From Xenophilus sp. AP218F (lineage in GTDB: Bacteria; Pseudomonadota; Gammaproteobacteria; Burkholderiales; Chromobacteriaceae), in NCBI GenBank assembly GCA_002213445.1, contig NJIE01000017.1:62001-126000 (forward strand): DNA of 64,000 nt, written 5' to 3'. The translations under genes and the position numbers were made by a program. The notes beneath the pieces are model-generated. The model was not told the DNA's origin, did no database searches, and was given only the letters and a program-made list of their open reading frames with translations. Positions 31,012 to 42,838 of this stretch are shown in pieces. Numbering within the stretch: the first letter of the stretch is position 1; each line of letters starts with the position of its first letter.

Positions 31012-31629
31012 TTACTTCTTGCCCGTCATTTCGCGGTACCAGCGCGGGTGGTGTTTCCTGGCCCAGCCGTGCGACACCACGCCTTCCACCATCGCGCGGA
31101 TGGTGCCCTTGACCCAGAAGGCCGCGTAGACGTGGATGATGATGCAGGCGATCAGCGCGGTGGCCGACCAGGCGTGGAACAGCAGCGCCAGACGAACCAC
31201 CTCGATCGGGAAATAGCCCGCGAAATAGGCGCGCCAGCCGATCAGGCCGGTGACCAGCATGGTCAGCATGCACAGGCACATCACCCAGAACATGCCTTTC
31301 TGTCCGCCGTTGTACTTGCCGATGTCGCCCACCTCGCGGCCCTTGAGCACGGTGGTCACCGACATCATCCATTTCACGTCTTCCTTGTCCAGCAGGTTGT
31401 GATGCCAGTAGCGGAAGAACTGCCGCAGGAAGGCGAGGAACATGATCACCCCGACGAAGGGGTGGATGATGCGCGCCAGCTGCGGGGTGCCGAACACGCC
31501 GGTCAGCCAGAAGAAGGCCGGGTAGAAGAATGCCAGGCCGGAAATGGCCAGCACGACGAAGCAGACGGCGACGACCCAGTGGTTGATGCGCTCGGGCGCG
31601 CTGTAGCGCTGAATCAGTTGCTCTTTCAT
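31012..31629 (-). CDS. fdnI: Formate dehydrogenase cytochrome b556 (gamma) subunit
   Basis: A 205-residue membrane subunit with four hydrophobic segments. Haem-ligand candidates include the histidines in [28 protein letters not shown] and [11 protein letters not shown]. It passes electrons from the iron-sulfur subunit to the quinone pool. Its start overlaps the fdnH stop by four bases. The E. coli equivalents are FdnI/FdoI. Confidence 0.92.
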
Positions 31630-32510
31630 GCCTTGTCCTCCTCGTGTTTCGTTTCTTCTTCATCGTCCGGCCGGTTGGGGCCGACGGTGATGTAGTGGAA
31701 GAAGCCGAACAGGCCGGCGGCGGCGATGCCTATGGTGGCCAGCGGCTTGAGCCAGCCCTTCCACAGCTGCACGGTGGGGCTGATGGCCGGGTCTTTGGGC
31801 AGCCTGGAGTACTGTTCGGGCTTGTCGGCGTGGTGCAGCACGTACATTACGTGGGTGCCGCCTACGCCCTGCGGATCGTACAGGCCGGCGTGGTCGTAGC
31901 CGCGCGACTTGAGGTCGGCCACCCGCTCCGCGGCCACGTCCTTCATGTCCTCCTTGGAGCCGAACTGGATGGCGCCGGTGGGACAGGTCTTGACGCAGGC
32001 GGGCTCCAGGCCGACGGCGACGCGGTCGGAGCACAGCGTGCACTTGTAGGCCTTGTTGTCTTCCTTGCTGATGCGCGGAATGTTGAACGGACAGCCGGCG
32101 ATGCAGTAGCCGCAGCCTATGCAGTTTTCCTGGTGGAAATCGACGATGCCGTTGCTGTACTGGATGATGGCGCCCGGCGAGGGGCAGGCTTTCAGGCAGC
32201 CGGGGTCGGCGCAGTGCATGCAGCCGTCCTTGCGGATCAGCCATTCCAGCTTGCCGTTGCTTTCCTCCTCGGCGAAGCGCATCACCGTCCAGGCCTTGGC
32301 GGACAGGTCGGTGGGGTTATCGTAAACGCCGATGTTGTGGCCCACTTCCTCGCGGATGTCGTTCCACTCGGAGCAGGCCACCTGACAGGCCTTGCAGCCT
32401 ATGCAGGTGGAGACGTCGATCAGCTTGGCCACTTCCAGCGTCTTGCGGACCTTGGGGCTTTCGGTGGGGCTGGCGGAGCGGCGGTTGATGTCCAGGGATT
32501 GTAATGGCAT
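31626..32510 (-). CDS. fdnH: Formate dehydrogenase iron-sulfur (beta) subunit
   Basis: A 294-residue four-cluster ferredoxin subunit. Cysteine groups [35 protein letters not shown] and [20 protein letters not shown] carry four [4Fe-4S] clusters. A C-terminal membrane anchor (about 257-278, [21 protein letters not shown]) fixes it to the membrane. It links the catalytic subunit to cytochrome b556. It starts 12 bases after fdnG ends. Confidence 0.93.
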
Positions 32511-32522
32511 GAACGGGGCTCC

Positions 32523-35500
32523 TTATGCTTTTTCCAGATTGACCAGAAAGGCTTTGTACTCGGGCGTCTGGGTGTTGCAGTCGCCCACCGCCGGCGACAG
32601 CGCGTTGGTCAGGTAGCCCTTTTGCGCCACGCCTTCCCAGCCCCAGTGCAGCGGGATGCCGATCTGGTGCACGGTCTGGCCGTTGATCTTCAGGGCCATC
32701 AGCCGCTTGGTGACCACCGCCTTGGCCTTGACGAAGCCGCGCTTGGAGCTGACTTTGACCGTGTCGCCCTGGACGATGCCCTTCTCCTTGGCCAGCGCCT
32801 CGCCGATTTCGACGAACTGCTCCGGCTGGGCGATGGCGTTGAGCAATACCGACTTGGTCCAGAACTGGAAGTGCTCGGTCAGGCGGTAAGTGGTGCCGAC
32901 GTAGGGGAATTCCTTGTGCGTGCCCAGGCGTTCGCGGTCGGTCTTGAAGATGCGCACCGCCGGGCTAGACACCACCTTGGGGTGCAGCGGGTTGGTGCCG
33001 ATCGGGCTTTCCATCGGTTCGTAGTGCTCGGGGAAGGGGCCGTCCACCAGCTTGTCCACGCAGAACAGCCGGCCTACGCCTTCCGGGTTCATGATGAAGG
33101 GGTTCATGCCCGAATCGGGCGCGGCGTCGGCCTTGAAGTCCGGCACGTCGCCGCCTGCCCATTTTTCCCCGTTCCAGCTGATCAGCTTGCGCTTCGGGTC
33201 CCACGGTTTGCCGGCCGGGTCGCAGGAGGCGCGGTTGTAGAGGATGCGGCGGTTGGCCGGCCACGCCCACGACCAGCCCGGCGTGTTGCCGAGGCCGGTG
33301 TCGGTGTTGTCGCGGCGGGCCATCTGGTTGCCAGCCTGGGTCCAGCAGCCGGCGAAAATCCAGCAGGCGCTCATAGTGCTGCCGTCGTCCTGCAGCACGG
33401 CGAAGCCCGGAATCTGCTCGCCCTTCTTCACCAGCGTCTTGGTCGGGTCGGCCGGGTCGGGCAGGTCCGCCAGCGCGCGGCCGTTCATTTCGCGGGCCAG
33501 TTCCTCGGCCGAGGGCGCGTTCGGGTCGCGGTAGTTCCAGGCGGCGTTGAGGATGGGCTCGGCCAGCTTGCCGCCGTGTTCCTGGTACAGCTTGCGCAGG
33601 GTGGTGAACAGTTCGCCGATGATCTCGTTGTCGCCGCGCGCTTCGCCCGGCGCGTCGGCGCCCTTCCAGTGCCACTGCAGCCAGCGCGCGGAGTTGACGA
33701 TGGAGCCGTCTTCCTCGGCGAAACAGGTGGAGGGCAGGCGGAACACCTCGGTCTGGATCTTGGCCGGGTCCACGTCGTGGGATTCGCCCTGGTTTTGCCA
33801 GAAGGTGGAGGTTTCGGTGGCGATCGGGTCGATGATCACCATGTACTTGAGCTTGGAGAAGGCCTCGGTCACCTTGCCGGCGTCCGGGAAGCTGGCCAGC
33901 GGGTTGAAACCCTGCACGATGAAGCCGTTGATCTTGCCCTGGTGCATCAGTTCGACGATGTGCAGCACGTCGTACATCTTGTCCCACTTGGGCAGCCAGT
34001 CGTAGCCCCAGTTGTTGTCTTTTGTCGCCTTGTCGCCCCAGAACCACTTCATCAGGCTGACGAAGAACTTGGGCGTGTTGCCCCAGTAATTGAGCTGGCC
34101 CGGTTGCAGCGCCTTGGGCGTGGTCTTGGCGAGGTAGCTGGCGAGATCGGGGTGGTCTTTCTCGTTGGGCAGCGTCAGGTAGCCCGGCAGGCTGGTGGAC
34201 AAAAGGCCTAGATCGGACAGGCCCTGGATATTGGAGTGGCCGCGCAGCGCGTTGACGCCGCCGCCGGGCATGCCCATATTGCCCAGCAGCAGCTGGATCA
34301 TGGCCATGGTGCGGATGTTCTGCGCGCCGGTGGTGTGCTGGGTCCAGCCCAGCGCGTACAGGATGGTGCCTACCTTGTCGGGACGAGCGGTGTCGCCCAG
34401 CTGCTTGCACACTTCCAGGAAGCCGGCTTCGGGCGTGCCGCAGATATTGTTGACCACGTCCGGGGTGTAGCGGTTGTAGTGCTGCTTCATCAGCTGCCAG
34501 ACGCAGCGCGGGTGTTGCAGCGTCGGGTCGGTCTTGGCGTTGCCTGCGGCGTCCAGCTCGTAGCTCCAGCTGGCTTTGTCGTACTTGCCCTTGGCTTCGT
34601 CGTAGCCGGAGAACAGGCCGTCTTCGAAGCTGAAGCCCTCGCCGACGATGAAGCTGGCGTTGGTGTAGGCCTTGACGTAGTCCCAGTGGATCTTGTCGTT
34701 CTTGATCAGCCAGTTGATCACGCCGCCCAGAAAGGCGATGTCGGAGCCGGCGCGGATCGGCAGGTAGAGATCGGATACCGCCGCGGTGCGGTTGTAGCGG
34801 GGATCGACCACGATCAGCTTGGCGCCGCGGGTTTTCTTGGCCTCGATCGCCCATTTGAAGCCCACCGGGTGCGCTTCGGCTGCGTTGCCGCCCATCACCA
34901 GGATGAAGTCGGCGTTCTTGATGTCCACCCAGCTGTTGGTCATCGCGCCGCGGCCGAAGGTGGAGGCCAGCGCCGATACCGTCGGTCCGTGGCAGACGCG
35001 GGCTTGGGCATCGGTGGCGACGATGCCGAGACTGCGCAGGAATTTCTGGGTGAGGATCCCGGTTTCGTTGGAGCCGGCCGAGGCGGTGAGCATCGCGGTG
35101 CTGAGCCAGCGGTTGACCGGCACGCCGTCGGCGTTCTTTTCCACGATATTGGCGTCGCGGTCGGCCTTCATGTGGCGGGCGATGCGCTCCATCGCCTCAT
35201 GCCATTCGATGCGTTTCCACTCCTTGCTGCCTGGCTCGCGCACTTCCGGATGCCGCAGCCGTTTGGGGCTGTGGATGAAGTCCAGCAGGCCGGCGCCCTT
35301 GGGACAGAGCGAGCCGCGGCTCACCGGGTGATCCGGGTCGCCTTCGATATGGTAGATCTCGCCCTTGGCGTTCTTGGCGCCGTCGCCCAAACCGTACAGG
35401 ATCAGGCCGCAGCCGACCGAACAGTAGGTACAGGTGTTGCGGGTTTCCTTCGCGCCCAGAAGCTTGAACTGGCGGACCTCCGCCATCGCCTGCTCCGGGG

Positions 35501-35579
35501 TGAAGCCCATGGCGACCAGGCTGGTGGCGCCCAGTTGCGCCGCAGTCAACTTGAATAGTTGCCGGCGGGTGACTTCCAT
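32523..35579 (-). CDS. fdnG: Formate dehydrogenase catalytic (alpha) subunit, cysteine form
   Basis: A 1018-residue molybdopterin oxidoreductase oxidising formate to CO2. It has a twin-arginine signal (TRRQLFK, residues 4-10), so the complex is periplasm-facing. [4Fe-4S] ligands are C50, C53, C57 and C92. The metal-ligand position, selenocysteine in E. coli FdnG, is cysteine here: C196 in ARVCHGPTV. The gene is one unbroken frame of normal length. AGGAGAAGG lies just before the ATG. First gene of fdnGHI-fdhDE. Confidence 0.95.
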   Translation of the reverse strand: MEVTRRQLFKLTAAQLGATSLVAMGFTPEQAMAEVRQFKLLGAKETRNTCTYCSVGCGLILYGLGDGAKNAKGEIYHIEGDPDHPVSRGSLCPKGAGLLDFIHSPKRLRHPEVREPGSKEWKRIEWHEAMERIARHMKADRDANIVEKNADGVPVNRWLSTAMLTASAGSNETGILTQKFLRSLGIVATDAQARVCHGPTVSALASTFGRGAMTNSWVDIKNADFILVMGGNAAEAHPVGFKWAIEAKKTRGAKLIVVDPRYNRTAAVSDLYLPIRAGSDIAFLGGVINWLIKNDKIHWDYVKAYTNASFIVGEGFSFEDGLFSGYDEAKGKYDKASWSYELDAAGNAKTDPTLQHPRCVWQLMKQHYNRYTPDVVNNICGTPEAGFLEVCKQLGDTARPDKVGTILYALGWTQHTTGAQNIRTMAMIQLLLGNMGMPGGGVNALRGHSNIQGLSDLGLLSTSLPGYLTLPNEKDHPDLASYLAKTTPKALQPGQLNYWGNTPKFFVSLMKWFWGDKATKDNNWGYDWLPKWDKMYDVLHIVELMHQGKINGFIVQGFNPLASFPDAGKVTEAFSKLKYMVIIDPIATETSTFWQNQGESHDVDPAKIQTEVFRLPSTCFAEEDGSIVNSARWLQWHWKGADAPGEARGDNEIIGELFTTLRKLYQEHGGKLAEPILNAAWNYRDPNAPSAEELAREMNGRALADLPDPADPTKTLVKKGEQIPGFAVLQDDGSTMSACWIFAGCWTQAGNQMARRDNTDTGLGNTPGWSWAWPANRRILYNRASCDPAGKPWDPKRKLISWNGEKWAGGDVPDFKADAAPDSGMNPFIMNPEGVGRLFCVDKLVDGPFPEHYEPMESPIGTNPLHPKVVSSPAVRIFKTDRERLGTHKEFPYVGTTYRLTEHFQFWTKSVLLNAIAQPEQFVEIGEALAKEKGIVQGDTVKVSSKRGFVKAKAVVTKRLMALKINGQTVHQIGIPLHWGWEGVAQKGYLTNALSPAVGDCNTQTPEYKAFLVNLEKA

Positions 35580-35727: not shown

Positions 35728-36042
35728 GGGAGCGAGGCTAGCTGCGACTGTCGCCTGTTTACCTTTTTATACTACCTGCTGGACCGGGGGTATGGCCATT
35801 GTCATGGCATGGTTTTTAAATAAAGTTTTGAAAACAGAAGAAAAATAAATCGATGAAACGGCGGCCCGCGCGGGGCGCGTCCAAAGCGTTTCTAGCCTAC
35901 TGTGTTGTAGCAGTTGTCCGGCTCGCTGCGCGAACTTTGACTTGCGCCTTGAGCCCGGCCGGCCAGACCGGGCAGATCGTCCGGCAGCGGTCGCGGCCGC
36001 AGCCGGCTTGGCGCGGCGCATGCCGCGGGCTTGAAATGAAAA

Positions 36043-36066
36043 CGCCCCCGGCAGGAACCGGGGGCG
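36043..36066 (-). terminator. Terminator of the tubulin-like gene
   Basis: CGCCCCCGG pairs with CCGGGGGCG around CAGGAA; read on the - strand it is followed by TTTTCATTTC. It lies about 20 bases after the tubulin-like stop codon. Confidence 0.85.
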
Positions 36067-36086
36067 CGGCGGGCGTCGCGTCCATT

Positions 36087-38273
36087 TCAGGAGCGCAGCC
36101 CGGCCTTGTGGTCGGCGTAGGTGTTGAGCGATACCACGCGGGTCTTGCCGATGCGGTGGCGGTAGATTTCGCGCAGGTAGCAGATCGCTTTCTGGACGTG
36201 TTCCCGATTCAGGCGGATGTCGTTGATCGAGACGAACTTCTGGTTGTCGCGGATCAGCTCGCGGTATTTCTTTTCGTACATCGGTTTGATCGCGAACCAG
36301 TTGGTGTCGAGGATCTTGGCCGGGTTCTCGAATTCGTCGAGCAGGGTTTCCAGCGACTTGGGGTCGAAGCTGTCGGCGGTGATCAGCTCCAGCAGCGCGT
36401 TGTCCAGGCTGTCTTCGTAGCGATAGCTGCCGCGGGCGAAGCAGCGCTTGATGTAGGACACGATCAGCGTCAGGAAGTCGTCGCTCAGGCAGGGGCTCTT
36501 GGCTACCAGCGTGGTCAGCGACAGGTTGGCCGACGCGCCGATCACCAGCGCGTAGCGTTTCAGCGTGGTGCCGGGGAACAGGCCGTTCAGGTGTCGCTTG
36601 AGGCGGTTCAGGTCCATGTAGGACAGCTTGTAGCCCTTGGGCAGCGACAGGATGGCCACCACCGACGAGCAGTTCTTGAAGAAGAACAGTTCGTTGAGCT
36701 TTTCCGGGGCGTAGCCGGACTGCTTGAACTCGGCCAGCGCCGCGCGGTAGCGGGTGGATTCGATAGGCAGCAGGCTGATGCCTTCGATGGCCTGCGTCTG
36801 CTGGTTGAAGTGCGGCAGGTCGATGGAGCGGAAGAACAGGTCGTCGATGTCCAGCTTGTTGCTGAAGCCGCTGGCGCCCAAGGGGTCGGTGACCACCGAT
36901 TCGGCGTAGGCGATGGCCACCGGGCCGGCCAGGCTCATGAACAGGTCGTTGGCGTCCAGGCGTATGGTTTCGCCCATGTCGATGCCGGCGCGCAGGAAGT
37001 AGTTTTCGTCGTAGTCGGTGGTGACGGCCTGCGCGGTCAGGATGTTGAAGATCTGCTGCGAGATGTACTGGTTGGCGTGGCGCTCCATGGCGTTGACGTC
37101 CAGGTCTTCGATGCTGCCGGCGTCGTTTTCCTCGGCGTAGCGCATGATGTCGTTGGAGATCAGCATCATCGCGTTCCACGGGCGGATGCGGCGCATCACG
37201 CTTTCCACGCCGGTTTCCTCGCTCTCGAAGTTGTAGGAGAAGTCCCACTCTTCGGACAGGTATTTGCACAGCAGGCGGCCGGCGTTGATGTGCAGCGCTT
37301 CGGAGCCCTCGGCGTGCTGGCCGGTGATGTTGGGCAGAATGCAGATGCCGCTGGTGAAGATGGGCTCGAACACGAAACCGTAGTCGTCGGCTTCGCCGTT
37401 GCCGTCGCCGCGGGTTTCGAAGGTCTTGCTCATGTAGGCGTACTGCTGGGCGAGGCCGAATTCCGAAGCCATGCCCGAGCCGGTGCCGCCGCCGGCGCTG
37501 AAGATGTAGAAGTACAGACGCGACTGGTTGGCCTTGATGCCGCAGGAATCGATCAGATAGGAGTGGATCATCTTCCAGTCGCTGTCGGAGAAGCTGACCG
37601 TATCCTTGTTGAGGATGATCTTGGCCAGGTACTGCCCGAGGATGGGGGCGTTGCCGGCGCCGCCGGCGTGCACCTCGGACAGGTCCATGATCTTCATCTT
37701 GTTGTATTCGTGCATGAAGTCGCTTTGCTCGCCGCGGCGCGAGAAGCGGATGCGGCCCCTGATGTCCTTGTCGAGGTCGCCCAGCATGACCATGGGCTCG
37801 ATCAGGAAGGCCGGCTTGGTTTCCTTGTGCGGCAGCAGCAGGTTGCGCTTGATCCAGCGGCCCGGACGGAACTCCTGCTCGGACGCGCTCTTTTCCTCGT
37901 TGCTGAATTCGTTGAGGTAGAACTTGCGGGCGTTGTAGACCAGCATCGCCACGTCCAGCGCGATATTGGAGCCGCAGCGGCCGAGGCCGATCAGGCATAC
38001 CGAGGGGAAGGGGCGTTCGTTGACGGTGACGTTGTCGTCGCCGCCGCGGGCGAAGGCGTTTTTCCGCAGGGTTTCCAGCTGCTGCAGGATGCGGTTGGTA
38101 TCGCGCTCGATGAAGTACTGGTAGCGGTTGAGACTGGCTGCGCCGCGCGGCTCGGCGACGGCGTTGCCGCGCAGCGTTGCGGGAGCGGCAGGCGTCGCCG
38201 GAGGGTCGAGATCGACGTGCTCTTCGGAGGACGGCTCGGGGGCGGACTGGTCGTACATAGATTGCATGATCAT
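36087..38273 (-). CDS. Tubulin/FtsZ-superfamily GTPase-like protein (Tubulin_2-like), 728 residues
   Basis: This is not FtsZ, but the tubulin nucleotide-binding order is readable. T1-like LIGLGRCGSNIALDVA is at 94-109, the tubulin signature AGGGTGSG at 260-267, and a T6-like LISNDIM at 371-377. A T7-like IRLDANDLF at 437-445 keeps the DxxD spacing (D440, D443) of the catalytic loop, with Arg where FtsZ has Asn. The 90-residue N-terminal tail is low-complexity, and a roughly 280-residue C-terminal region follows the GTPase core. No signal peptide or membrane segment. Monocistronic, GC-typical, with its own terminator. Function unknown: a cytoskeletal, membrane-remodelling or defence role are all open. 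Confidence 0.75.
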   Translation of the reverse strand: MIMQSMYDQSAPEPSSEEHVDLDPPATPAAPATLRGNAVAEPRGAASLNRYQYFIERDTNRILQQLETLRKNAFARGGDDNVTVNERPFPSVCLIGLGRCGSNIALDVAMLVYNARKFYLNEFSNEEKSASEQEFRPGRWIKRNLLLPHKETKPAFLIEPMVMLGDLDKDIRGRIRFSRRGEQSDFMHEYNKMKIMDLSEVHAGGAGNAPILGQYLAKIILNKDTVSFSDSDWKMIHSYLIDSCGIKANQSRLYFYIFSAGGGTGSGMASEFGLAQQYAYMSKTFETRGDGNGEADDYGFVFEPIFTSGICILPNITGQHAEGSEALHINAGRLLCKYLSEEWDFSYNFESEETGVESVMRRIRPWNAMMLISNDIMRYAEENDAGSIEDLDVNAMERHANQYISQQIFNILTAQAVTTDYDENYFLRAGIDMGETIRLDANDLFMSLAGPVAIAYAESVVTDPLGASGFSNKLDIDDLFFRSIDLPHFNQQTQAIEGISLLPIESTRYRAALAEFKQSGYAPEKLNELFFFKNCSSVVAILSLPKGYKLSYMDLNRLKRHLNGLFPGTTLKRYALVIGASANLSLTTLVAKSPCLSDDFLTLIVSYIKRCFARGSYRYEDSLDNALLELITADSFDPKSLETLLDEFENPAKILDTNWFAIKPMYEKKYRELIRDNQKFVSINDIRLNREHVQKAICYLREIYRHRIGKTRVVSLNTYADHKAGLRS

Positions 38274-39224
38274 CCATTCATGAGGCTGAGGGGTTGACCC
38301 AAAACCGGGCGTAGAGGCCGGTGAACCGGCGCCATCGATGCGCGATTCGCCGACGAGCCGGCGCCGTGATTATTCACATGTATTGTCCGGCCCATTGCAG
38401 CTTTTTTCCACTAAATTCTTGCGCGGTCCGTCCGGGGATGGCTTGTTTTTTCGATTCTCCCGCCTTCGCGCGCGCTTTTCCCGGCCATACAAATTGAATA
38501 TAGGAGACGGCCGCGGCGGCTTGTAGTACGGAACGCGGCCGGCCGGGCTGCCGGCTTCCTTTGAGCGGCGTGTTCCTCCGTCTGTTTTCCAGCGCGGCGG
38601 AAGTCCCTGATTCCGTTCCGGCTTGCCGGCGGCGGGGCAGGGAGCCACGACAGGCTGTTAGTCCTTAACGCAGCGCGGCTTTTCGTGATGACAGGCGGGC
38701 GGCATTGGACCGCGGCCTTGCTCCGCCGGCGCGGCGGCAGGCCTGAGATGCGCGGGAGGGCTGGCGACGAGGAGGGCGCGACGTGTTGCGGCGCGGGAGC
38801 GGCGCTTCGGCCAAGGGTAAAGATATGTAACAAATTGTAACCAGCATCGACATGCAAAAAGAATAATGACAATGTCCTAAGTGGTTGATTGCCTACCGGT
38901 TTCTTTGCGATTTGGTGTTGATTTGCCGCAAGGCGATTTTCCGTTTTGGCGAAAGAGAGACAGATTTTTGCGACGGCGGACTTGAAAAAAGGCGGCAAAG
39001 CCTTTTAAATGGCCCGCCATTACCGGGCGGGGCGGCGATGATACCTCAGAACCGTATGCGCGTGTTCGCGCGCACGCGCCTCGCGCCGCAGGACTTCGCA
39101 CGATGACGCGGCGGCCGCACCCGGCCGCGCGCTTCCATTTTGCTGCAAACGACATCTGCTTCGCAGGCGCTTCCGGGGGGAAGGCCTGCGAAACTCCGGA
39201 ATTACCAACCTGTAAAGTCGCAAG
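38274..39224. other. 951-bp gene-free divergent region between the tubulin-like gene and cyoA
   Basis: No credible coding frame; the 195-residue - strand opening at 38411-38998 is low-complexity Arg/Pro/Ser and lacks a ribosome site. AT-rich patches occur at about 38380-38420 and 38815-38890, where promoters of the two divergent units could lie. Much of the rest is GC-rich and irregular. An untranslated RNA is possible but no conserved family was recognised. Confidence 0.5.
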
Positions 39225-40166
39225 ATGAAGAACCATAGACCCTCCCGCTGGATGTGGGGGCTCGCTCCGGTGGTGCTCGGCCTGCTTTCGGGATGCCAAG
39301 GCGGCATTCTCGATCCGAAGGGCCATATCGCCGCCGAGCAGAAGTCCCTGATCATCACGGCCACCGCGCTGATGCTGTTGGTGGTGATCCCCGTTATCGT
39401 GATGACCCTGGTGTTCGCCTGGAAGTACCGCGCCAGCAACACCAAGTCCACCTACCTGCCCAAATGGGCCCACTCGACCAAGATCGAGCTGGTGGTGTGG
39501 CTGATTCCCTGCGTCATCATCGCCTTCCTCGCCACCATTACCTGGAAGACCACCCACGAGCTGGACCCGTATCGTCCGCTGGAGTCGGACAAGAAGCCGA
39601 TCCAGGTGCAGGTGGTGGCGCTGGACTGGAAGTGGCTGTTCATCTATCCGGAGCTGAATATCGCCAGCGTCAACGAACTGGCGTTCCCGACCAATGTGCC
39701 GGTGAACTTCAAGATCACTTCCGACGCGGCGATGAACTCCTTCTTCATCCCGCAACTGGGCGGCCAGATCTATGCGATGGCCGGCATGCAGACGCAATTG
39801 CACCTGATCGCCAACGAGCCGGGCACTTACAAGGGTTTCTCCGCCAACTACAGCGGCGCGGGTTTCTCCGGCATGAAGTTCAACGCCATCGCCGCCAAGA
39901 CCCCGGCCGAGTTCGACGCCTGGGTGGCCAAGGTGCGCGCCAGCGGCCAGACCCTGTCGCCGGAAGCGTACCTGCAACTGCTCAAGCGCAGCGAAAAGCA
40001 CCCGGTCACGTACTACGCGTCCAGCACGCCGTACCTGTTCCAGGCTGTTCTGCACAAATACATGGCCAGCCGTCCGTCGCTGGCTGATAGCGACGACGCC
40101 ATCAAGCTGGCCAAGATGACGCAAGAGCTGTGCGCGGCCATCACCCCGCCGGTTGTCAAGGAGTAA
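39225..40166 (+). CDS. cyoA: Cytochrome bo3 ubiquinol oxidase subunit II
   Basis: The 313-residue protein has a lipoprotein-type signal (LGLLSGC, C25) and two membrane segments (about 42-65 and 85-105), then a periplasmic cupredoxin domain. It keeps the WLFIYPELNIASVNELAFPTNVPV and FFIPQLGGQIYAMAGMQ parts but lacks CuA ligands, as expected for a quinol oxidase. The first gene of cyoABCDE. Confidence 0.95.
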   Translation: MKNHRPSRWMWGLAPVVLGLLSGCQGGILDPKGHIAAEQKSLIITATALMLLVVIPVIVMTLVFAWKYRASNTKSTYLPKWAHSTKIELVVWLIPCVIIAFLATITWKTTHELDPYRPLESDKKPIQVQVVALDWKWLFIYPELNIASVNELAFPTNVPVNFKITSDAAMNSFFIPQLGGQIYAMAGMQTQLHLIANEPGTYKGFSANYSGAGFSGMKFNAIAAKTPAEFDAWVAKVRASGQTLSPEAYLQLLKRSEKHPVTYYASSTPYLFQAVLHKYMASRPSLADSDDAIKLAKMTQELCAAITPPVVKE

Positions 40167-40172
40167 CGATAG

Positions 40173-42212
40173 ATGTTAGGCAAACTCACTCTGGACGCCA
40201 TCCCGTTCCATGAGCCCATCGTAATGGGGGCGCTGGGCGGCGCCGGCCTGGTTGGGCTGATGCTGATGGCGTTGATCACCAAGTTCGGCAAGTGGGGCTA
40301 TCTCTGGAAGGAGTGGCTCACTTCGGTCGATCACAAGAAGATCGGCGTGATGTACATCATCGTCGCCATGATCATGCTGCTGCGCGGCTTCGCCGACGCG
40401 CTGATGATGCGCGCGCAGCTGGCCATCGCCACCGGCGGCAGCCACGGCGTGCTGCCGCCCGATCACTACGATCAGATCTTCACCGCCCACGGCGTGATCA
40501 TGATCATCTTCATGGCCATGCCGTTCATGACCGGCCTGATGAACATCGTGGTGCCGCTGCAGATCGGCGCGCGCGACGTGGCCTTCCCCTTCCTGAACTC
40601 CCTCAGCCTGTGGCTGCTGGTGGCCGCGGCCATTCTGGTCAACCTGTCTCTGGGCGTGGGCAATTTCGCCCGCACCGGCTGGGTGGCCTATCCGCCATTG
40701 TCGGAGCTGGGGTTCAGTCCTGACGTGGGGGTGGATTACTACATCTGGGCCTTGCAGCTGTCAGGCTTAGGGACGACGCTGACGGCCATCAACTTCCTGG
40801 TGACCGTGATCAAGATGCGCGCCCCCGGCATGAAGCTGATGGACATGCCGATCTTCACCTGGACCTGCACCTGGGCCAACGTGCTGATCGCCACCTCTTT
40901 CCCGATCCTGACCGGCGCGCTGGCGATGCTGACGCTGGACCGCTACCTGGACTTCCACTTCTTCACGGCGGAAGCGGGCGGCAACGCCATGATGTACCTG
41001 AACCTGTTCTGGGCCTGGGGCCACCCCGAGGTGTACATCCTGGTGCTGCCGGCGTTCGGCATCTTCTCCGAAGTGGTATCCACTTTCACCGGCAAGCGCC
41101 TGTTCGGCCACAAGTCCATGATCTACGCCAGCGGCGCGATCTCCATTCTGGGCTTCATGGTCTGGCTGCACCACTTCTTCACCATGGGTTCGGGCGCCAG
41201 CGTCAACGCCTTCTTCGGCATCGCGACCATGATCATCTCGATCCCGACCGGCGTGAAGCTGTTCAACTGGCTGTTCACCATCTACCGCGGCCGTCTGCGC
41301 TTTGAAAACCCCATCCTGTGGACGCTGGGTTTCATGGTGACCTTCTCCATCGGCGGCATGACCGGCGTGCTGCTGGCGGTGCCGGGCGCGGACTTCGTGC
41401 TGCACAACAGCCTGTTCCTGATCGCCCACTTCCACAACACCATCATCGGCGGCGCGGTGTTCGGCTACCTGGCGGGTTTCGCCTTCTGGTTCCCGAAAGT
41501 GTTCGGCTTCAAGCTGGAGCCCAAGCTGGGCAAGGCCGCGTTCTGGTTCTGGCAGATCGGCTTCATGTTCGCCTTCATCCCGCTGTACGTGCTGGGCTTC
41601 ATGGGCATGACCCGTCGCCTGAACTACACCACCAACCCGGAATTCGAGCCGTGGCTGAACCTGGCGCTGTTCGGCGCGCTGCTGATCGCCTGCGGCATCG
41701 CCTGCCAGCTGGCGCAGATCGCGGTGAGCGTGATGAAGCGCCACGAGCTGAAGGACGAAACCGGCGATCCGTGGAACGGCCACACTCTGGAGTGGTCCAC
41801 CTCGTCTCCGGCGCCGTTCTACAACTTCGCCAAGCTGCCGCAAGTGCATGACATCGACGCCTTCACCGACATGAAGGAAAAGGGCGTGGCCTACGCGGTG
41901 CCGAAGTCTTACGAGCCCATCCACATGCCGAAGAACACCGCCCACGGCGTCTACATCGGCGGCTTCTCCACCTTGCTGGGCTTCGCGATGATCTGGCACA
42001 TCTGGTGGCTGGCGCTGCTGAGCCTGGTCGGCATCTTCGCCTGCATGCTGGCCCGCGCCTACGACGGCGACAAGGACTACTACGTGCAGCCGGAAGAAGT
42101 GGCCGCCATCGAGCGCGCGCGTTTCGCCAAGATGGGCGTCCGCGCCGACGACGCCGCCGCTGAGAACGCCGCCCCGTCCGGCCGCGCCCCTCGCCCGGCT
42201 ACTACCGCCTAA
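40173..42212 (+). CDS. cyoB: Cytochrome bo3 ubiquinol oxidase subunit I
   Basis: A 679-residue haem-copper oxidase catalytic subunit with 14-15 membrane segments. The low-spin haem ligand is in TAHGVIM, the CuB His-Tyr pair in [12 protein letters not shown], two CuB histidines in [10 protein letters not shown], and the haem o3 and b ligands in [12 protein letters not shown]. It reduces O2 to water and pumps protons. It starts 7 bases after cyoA. Confidence 0.96.
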
Positions 42213-42226
42213 AGGTTGGAATACTG

Positions 42227-42838
42227 ATGAGTACTTATGTAAATCAAGCGCACGGCGCGCACGACGACCATGAGCACCACGACGGCGACTCGCAGACCGT
42301 CCTGGGCTTCTGGTTCTACCTGATGACCGACTGCATCCTGTTCGCCACGGCGTTCGCCACCTACGCGGTGCTGTTCCGCAACGTGGCCGCCGGGGTGTCG
42401 GGCAAGGAAATCTTCGATCTGCAATACGTGCTGCTGGAAACCGGCGCGCTGCTGCTGTCGTCGATCACCTACGGCTTCGCGATGATCGCCGGCCACAAGG
42501 GCAACAAGTCGGCGGCGCTGGGCTGGCTGGGCATGACCTTCCTGTTCGGCCTCGCCTTCATGGCGATGGAAATCAACGAATTCCATCACCTGATCGCCGA
42601 AGGCCACGGCCCCAACGTCAGCGCCTTCCTGTCGGCCTTCTTCGGCCTGGTGGGCCTGCACGGCCTGCACGTGACCGCCGGCCTGGTGTGGATGGCGGTG
42701 ATGATGATCGAAGTGGCCCGCCGCGGCCTCGGCAAGCAGACCATGACGCGCCTGACCTGCCTGTCGCTGTTCTGGCACTTCCTCGACATCGTCTGGATTT
42801 GCGTGTTCACCGTCGTTTACCTGAAAGGAGCCATGTGA
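42227..42838 (+). CDS. cyoC: Cytochrome bo3 ubiquinol oxidase subunit III
   Basis: A 203-residue membrane protein with five hydrophobic segments. [26 protein letters not shown] near the start and [12 protein letters not shown] are typical of CyoC. It stabilises the oxidase core. Its stop overlaps the cyoD start by one base. Confidence 0.95.

Follow-up and report, generated by a model that had tools for sequence, protein, structure and literature searches.

A chromosomal, probably FtsZl2-type tubulin relative in Xenophilus sp. AP218F and its possible link to cyclic di-GMP signalling

FtsZl2, a proteobacterial family of the FtsZ/tubulin group, was found by a search for the motif GGGTG(S/T)G and is typified by PFL_1302 of Pseudomonas fluorescens Pf-5, with Chromobacterium violaceum and Marinomonas named in the figure legend (Makarova and Koonin, 2010; PMC2875224). 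The passages of that paper on the family note all motifs, describe a C-terminal region of about 300 residues that lacks an assignment or detected similarity, report a HHpred match of PFL_1302 to PF00091 (expectation value, E, 0.0033), give no associated genes, see "no functional clues" in the gene context and, in the authors' response, predict filaments. FtsZl2 has been an orphan since then, a strongly conserved second tubulin relative in many Pseudomonas and scattered beta- and gammaproteobacteria; no functional study was found in the open-access literature, subscription journals being mostly outside the scope of the search. This report describes a 728-residue protein of Xenophilus sp. AP218F that very probably belongs to FtsZl2, PFL_1302 having been compared by its published description. 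It is encoded on the minus strand at 36087..38273 of a 64,000-nucleotide stretch (contig NJIE01000017.1, positions 62,001 to 126,000), hereafter the window. The genome is taken to be that of a Chromobacterium, since gene copies in genomes of its genus are identical to copies in named Chromobacterium species. A previous examination of the DNA letters alone, termed here the sequence-only reading, had presented the protein as a noteworthy free-standing member of a mostly uncharacterised kind; the family was in fact described in 2010, and what is added here is a clue pointing to cyclic diguanosine monophosphate (c-di-GMP) and an assignment for part of the C-terminal region.

Probable FtsZl2 membership and proposed role

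The tubulin-superfamily case is based on an ordered set of motifs, T1, T3, T4, T6 and T7, which follow the order of FtsZ and are almost invariant across an alignment of 148 rows (the same genomes being repeated among them, with 58 rows left at a 93% identity filter, and the pieces of a broken gene copy excluded). The loop names are assigned by analogy with FtsZ. The T1-like loop GLGRCGSN (residues 96-103; 37965..37988, minus strand like all motifs here) keeps G96, G98, R99, C100, G101, S102 and N103 in all 148 rows. The T3-like loop AGGAGNAPILG (residues 203-213; 37635..37667), recognized in the alignments, is comparable to GLGAGANPEVG of FtsZ proteins in alignment A3. The T4 signature AGGGTGSG (residues 260-267; 37473..37496), where the DNA pattern of the motif matches, the T6-like ISNDI (residues 372-376, SND being 373-375; 37146..37160) and the T7-like RLDAND (residues 438-443; 36945..36962), with D440, D443 and R438 in the place of Asn, are each present in 148/148 rows. 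These positions and their order had been read correctly from the sequence, as had membership in the superfamily, which the motif order and a C-terminal domain match support; the T3-like loop is added here. The T7 Arg had also been seen; being invariant, it characterizes the family as a whole rather than the window protein alone. Ahead of the motifs lies the low-complexity N-terminal tail noted in the sequence-only reading (residues 1-47; 38133..38273, minus strand; alignments A1 and A2), which is variable and mostly missing from members of about 675 residues.

Like the FtsZl2 proteins of 2010, the protein carries GGGTG(S/T)G, keeps T1, T4, T6 and T7 with insertions between T1 and T4, has a mixed alpha/beta C-terminal region of about 300 residues without coiled coil (judged from a structural model, no coiled-coil program having been run), occurs within the searched material in Proteobacteria only, Chromobacterium and Pseudomonas included, and is accompanied by a separate FtsZ. 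That account is extended here by the GGDEF genes that neighbour FtsZl2 in several lineages, by a predicted C-terminal domain resembling that of FtsZ and by the invariance of the T7 Arg in the 148 rows. In its own genome the DNA pattern GGGTG[S/T]G falls at two places, FtsZ and the 728-residue gene, which matches the motif search that found FtsZl2. By genome, the pattern falls at two places in G000 and in G428 (FtsZ and the FtsZl2 gene), at two in G529 and at three in G009. Taken alone the pattern is weak, because its reverse matched more often in the three GC-rich genomes. The third site of G009, a Chromobacterium genome, lies at C1:82119-82138, besides the FtsZl2 gene and the presumed FtsZ.

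Other relatives are less close. FtsZ shares the motif order and the predicted C-terminal domain, whereas the present protein is twice as long, has Arg in T7, is encoded apart from FtsZ and is missing from many related genomes. FtsZl1/Tubulin_2 (PF13809) shows weak profile similarity (E 0.0057), but the score is below the cut-off, no neighbour of FtsZl1 type (vWA, kinase) was seen, and no match to PF13809 came up in 81 genomes, the own one and related ones. The structural matches include one TubZ and two CetZ chains; in contrast to TubZ, PhuZ and CetZ, the gene was not on the plasmids or phages searched, and sequence identity is low, at 10-12%.

The reading favoured here, with moderate confidence, is that the protein is a chromosomal FtsZl2 member acting as a GTP-binding polymer or scaffold outside division and connected with c-di-GMP signalling in some lineages. 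A role in division is set aside because FtsZ is also present in each genome checked (9/9) and many related genomes do without FtsZl2. GTP would be held in a pocket formed by T1 to T6; subunits would stack head to tail, with T7 (D440, D443 and Arg 438) completing the GTP site of the next subunit; and GTP turnover would drive assembly and disassembly of the filament or scaffold. Least certain of the steps, the filament may serve, or report to, a behaviour that c-di-GMP controls, for instance attachment or the change between a motile and a sessile state. This c-di-GMP role is proposed because the gene adjoins GGDEF/EAL enzymes of membrane-sensor type in several lineages, Chromobacterium not among them.

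GGDEF genes beside FtsZl2

A survey of gene neighbourhoods, which the sequence-only reading had proposed, was run with a GGDEF profile built from two neighbour proteins, lineages being defined as clusters at 90% (29) or 85% identity (21). Of 128 loci, 49 have a GGDEF gene no farther than 1.2 kb away; they represent 8/29 lineages at 90% and 5/21 at 85%, while the five 1.2-kb bins farther out hold one in 2, 0, 0, 1 and 1 lineages. When all neighbouring open reading frames (ORFs) were screened, GGDEF came first with 8 lineages, the next best family reaching 4, and Pfam confirmed the domain in all 15 neighbours given as candidates. The background density was 2 GGDEF ORFs in 400 kb (20 stretches from two genomes), against which the binomial probability is 1e-9 for 8/29 and 4e-6 for 5/21, or 3e-7 and 1e-4 at doubled density.

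Five or more different architectures occur among these neighbours, and in three families the order of the genes switches while adjacency stays. A MHYT-GGDEF-EAL protein is encoded at 36 Pseudomonas loci (upstream in 26, downstream in 10) and a NMT1-GGDEF protein at five (upstream in two, downstream in three). An Amt-PAS-GGDEF-EAL protein is encoded upstream in L206, downstream in four related loci and not at all in two others of the group; the copies of L206 and L137 are 73% identical over 1016 residues. All three side-switching families remain adjacent to the FtsZl2 gene and co-directional with it; at L042 the gap to the neighbour measures 59 bases. This gene-order evidence is independent of the binomial figures; the copies on the two sides, which may be orthologues, were compared at the loci. 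Single cases are L069 (opposite strand) and L176 and, farther off, L140 and L182.

The chief alternative, judged a real possibility though the less probable one, is that the adjacency reflects coincidence and shared ancestry without a functional link: an old neighbour kept in Pseudomonas, another in the group of about 675 residues and a few chance cases. Several observations weigh on that side and against a c-di-GMP role. As many as 42 of the 49 GGDEF-adjacent loci belong to one Pseudomonas cluster at 85% identity; the GGDEF family was picked after looking and the lineages are related, which limits the binomial figures; and no GGDEF gene lies within about 8 kb at the window or at 13 other Chromobacterium loci. 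When whole neighbour families were compared at 30 loci of diverse lineages, none recurred in more than six, shadow ORFs aside, in agreement with the FtsZl2 passages of the 2010 study, which give no associated genes; the comparison at domain level, by the GGDEF profile, alters this picture. Coincidence is opposed by the counts of lineages at either identity level against the background density, by the number of architectures and by the families in which order changes and adjacency does not. A farther-reaching version of the favoured reading, offered tentatively and considered rather doubtful, would make FtsZl2 the tubulin-type cytoskeletal filament of machinery that is linked to c-di-GMP and serves life on surfaces or in the sessile state, forming one functional unit with membrane-sensor GGDEF/EAL enzymes that selection keeps together through changes of order, with different sensors recruited in different lineages. 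The recurring GGDEF neighbours are the first testable clue to the role of FtsZl2; Pseudomonas strains in wide laboratory use may have the gene, which would make knockouts easy.

Other neighbours were also considered. A phosphofructokinase gene lies downstream in L177, L178, L191 and L194-L199, four lineages at 90% identity, and this adjacency is taken as shared ancestry. PP_4404/PP_4405 of P. putida, considered as a candidate for the FtsZl2/GGDEF pair, was discarded, PP_4404 belonging to the branched-chain keto acid dehydrogenase (BKD) complex according to the part of PMC12005932 that treats it; likewise the string "FtsZl2" in the pertinent text of PMC7327170 denotes FtsZ(L272E) and not the family.

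T7, fold and descent

The FtsZ-like C-terminal domain and the invariant T7 Arg raise a clear biochemical question, namely how FtsZl2 hydrolyses GTP. The protein could be a tubulin-fold GTPase working as a monomer or dimer switch without filaments, the Arg having abolished head-to-tail activation. Arg replaces the T7 Asn in 148/148 rows and, in sequence comparison with FtsZ, long insertions separate the motifs, both of which suit such a switch. It is nevertheless considered unlikely: the two Asp residues of T7 do not vary, nor do the T3, T4 and T6 motifs, which suggests that an inter-subunit active site is kept, and the filaments foreseen in the 2010 response point the same way.

Part of the C-terminal region, regarded as unassignable from the letters, is predicted to be a domain like that of FtsZ, TubZ and CetZ (about residues 452-598; 36480..36920, minus strand). 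In an AlphaFold2 model of low confidence residues ~438-598 are placed on the C-terminal domain of these proteins, and a structural comparison with VIA-align gave FtsZ-superfamily chains in 47 of 50 rows, the matched model residues starting at or near T7. In the model of residues 48-728 strands and helices alternate after T7.

A family unrelated to tubulin, Rossmann-like and with a convergent glycine loop, is very improbable, and the points that weigh on its side come from profile, sequence and structure tests. The window protein scores 16.4 bits against PF13809 (cut-off 27; E 0.0057) and 16.3 bits against PF00091 (cut-off 33; E 0.012); all 57 diverse members scanned fall below the curated Pfam cut-off, and a match to DUF6562, present in 19 of them, reaches E 0.00041. 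Against the FtsZ proteins from the same genomes, hhalign aligns the glycine loop only (23 columns, probability ~2%), the GTPase half of the AlphaFold2 model is not confidently folded, and the protein gave no match in a PDB sequence search. NCBIfam gave none for the window protein either. The ordered T1, T3, T4, T6 and T7, the 47 structural rows and the HHpred match of PFL_1302 to PF00091 speak for tubulin ancestry. The two checks that the sequence-only reading had put forward came out mixed: Pfam names both Tubulin and Tubulin_2 at E up to 1 in 57/57 members (best E 0.00022 and 0.00048), but none above the cut-off, and structure prediction places the C-terminal domain, in a model of low confidence, but does not fold the GTPase half confidently. 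A ribosomal L23-like match of the tail in the PDB search (best E 0.26) is at chance level, a single PHROG match (E 0.098) was taken as chance and does not make this a phage family, and PADLOC gave no match that would mark a defence gene.

Samples used for the distribution overlap. Of 61 genomes, the own one among them, 13 have the FtsZl2 gene, all of the own genus (13/19 within it); the gene is present in 2/369 genomes of the class sample; in 12/194 of the order and 130/199 of the genus of P. batumici; in 9/398 of the phylum sample, all of the same class; and, broken copies counted, in 32/394 of the order of Alkalimonas. Between the own genome and Pseudomonas, FtsZl2 is 77% identical and FtsZ 56%, but FtsZl2 has no such lead within the family, the values for Vogesella being 86% and 88% (comparison made in 8 genomes). 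This hints at horizontal transfer from one of the beta and gamma lineages to the other; either that or uneven rates would explain the gap. A segregation tubulin of TubZ or PhuZ type, derived from a plasmid or phage and now chromosomal, would fit the patchy distribution and the identity gap suggestive of transfer, yet is scarcely credible given a single chromosomal copy, no conserved segregation partner among the neighbours and no relative in the viral contigs (searched with two peptide patterns), plasmids or phages.

Six of the 19 own-genus genomes are without the gene (G001, G002, G005, a single contig, G011, G013 and G018), which suggests loss within the genus. In G986 and G1220, which seem to be one and the same genome, the gene is in pieces (C1:2486898-2489628, L142), with stops and about 1 kb of additional sequence separating residues ~345 and ~370; in G1363:C55 only fragments are left.

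The gene and its surroundings in the window

The ORF had been placed exactly by the sequence-only reading, to which the strand is added here. It is not a chance frame, near-full-length homologues being aligned in the 13 of 61 genomes mentioned, and 558 of 590 candidate stretches from genome contigs code for a relative. The ratio of nonsynonymous to synonymous substitution rates (dN/dS) is ~0.06-0.36 for those 13 of the 18 computed pairs whose dS is finite, and the gene is clearly under purifying selection. Two overlapping frames were rejected: an 814-residue ORF on the plus strand is an artefact of composition at third codon positions, its frame being closed by 16-45 stops in four homologues whose GC content at those positions (GC3) is below 0.6, and neither it nor an 836-residue ORF has a Pfam match.

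Several local statements of the sequence-only reading held. Composition is host-adapted (GC3 0.91; neighbours 0.88-0.92), a terminator-like stem of 11 pairs follows the stop codon (36042..36067, minus strand), and no operon partner exists within the window. The terminator scan gave 8 such sites in the 64-kb stretch against 4.9 expected from shuffles, a count not significant by itself. Upstream, a 50-base stretch conserved in Chromobacterium (TGGAAA, 17 bases, GACAAT; 38370..38419, minus strand) accounts for 29 of the 47 columns that do not vary in the eight-row alignment A4; read by eye and absent from the consensus-scan list, it is probably the gene's own promoter. Sigma-54, FliA, RpoS -10, LexA, Fur, PhoB and RpoH boxes did not exceed shuffles in 81 upstream regions.

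The gene had been called free-standing and set beside respiratory operons. It does stand alone in Chromobacterium, but has an adjacent GGDEF gene in other lineages. Downstream, on the strand of the gene, lies a formate dehydrogenase operon (31626-35579), and upstream, on the opposite strand, an operon for a cyo-type oxidase (39225-42838), yet a respiratory link was rejected, the context not being kept: the neighbours are purB and resistance-nodulation-division (RND) efflux genes in other Chromobacterium, electron transfer flavoprotein-ubiquinone oxidoreductase (ETF-QO) in Alkalimonas and relatives, and major facilitator superfamily (MFS) and c-di-GMP genes in Pseudomonas. The respiratory neighbours of the window gene look incidental. 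At other Chromobacterium loci (e.g., L129) purB is upstream and, in most, the RND genes are downstream, and at eight of them (some being repeats of one genome) sequence matching the formate dehydrogenase region follows beyond the RND genes. Because the RND genes are missing between the two regions, the segment 31626-38273 of the window is read as a rearranged version of one Chromobacterium locus.
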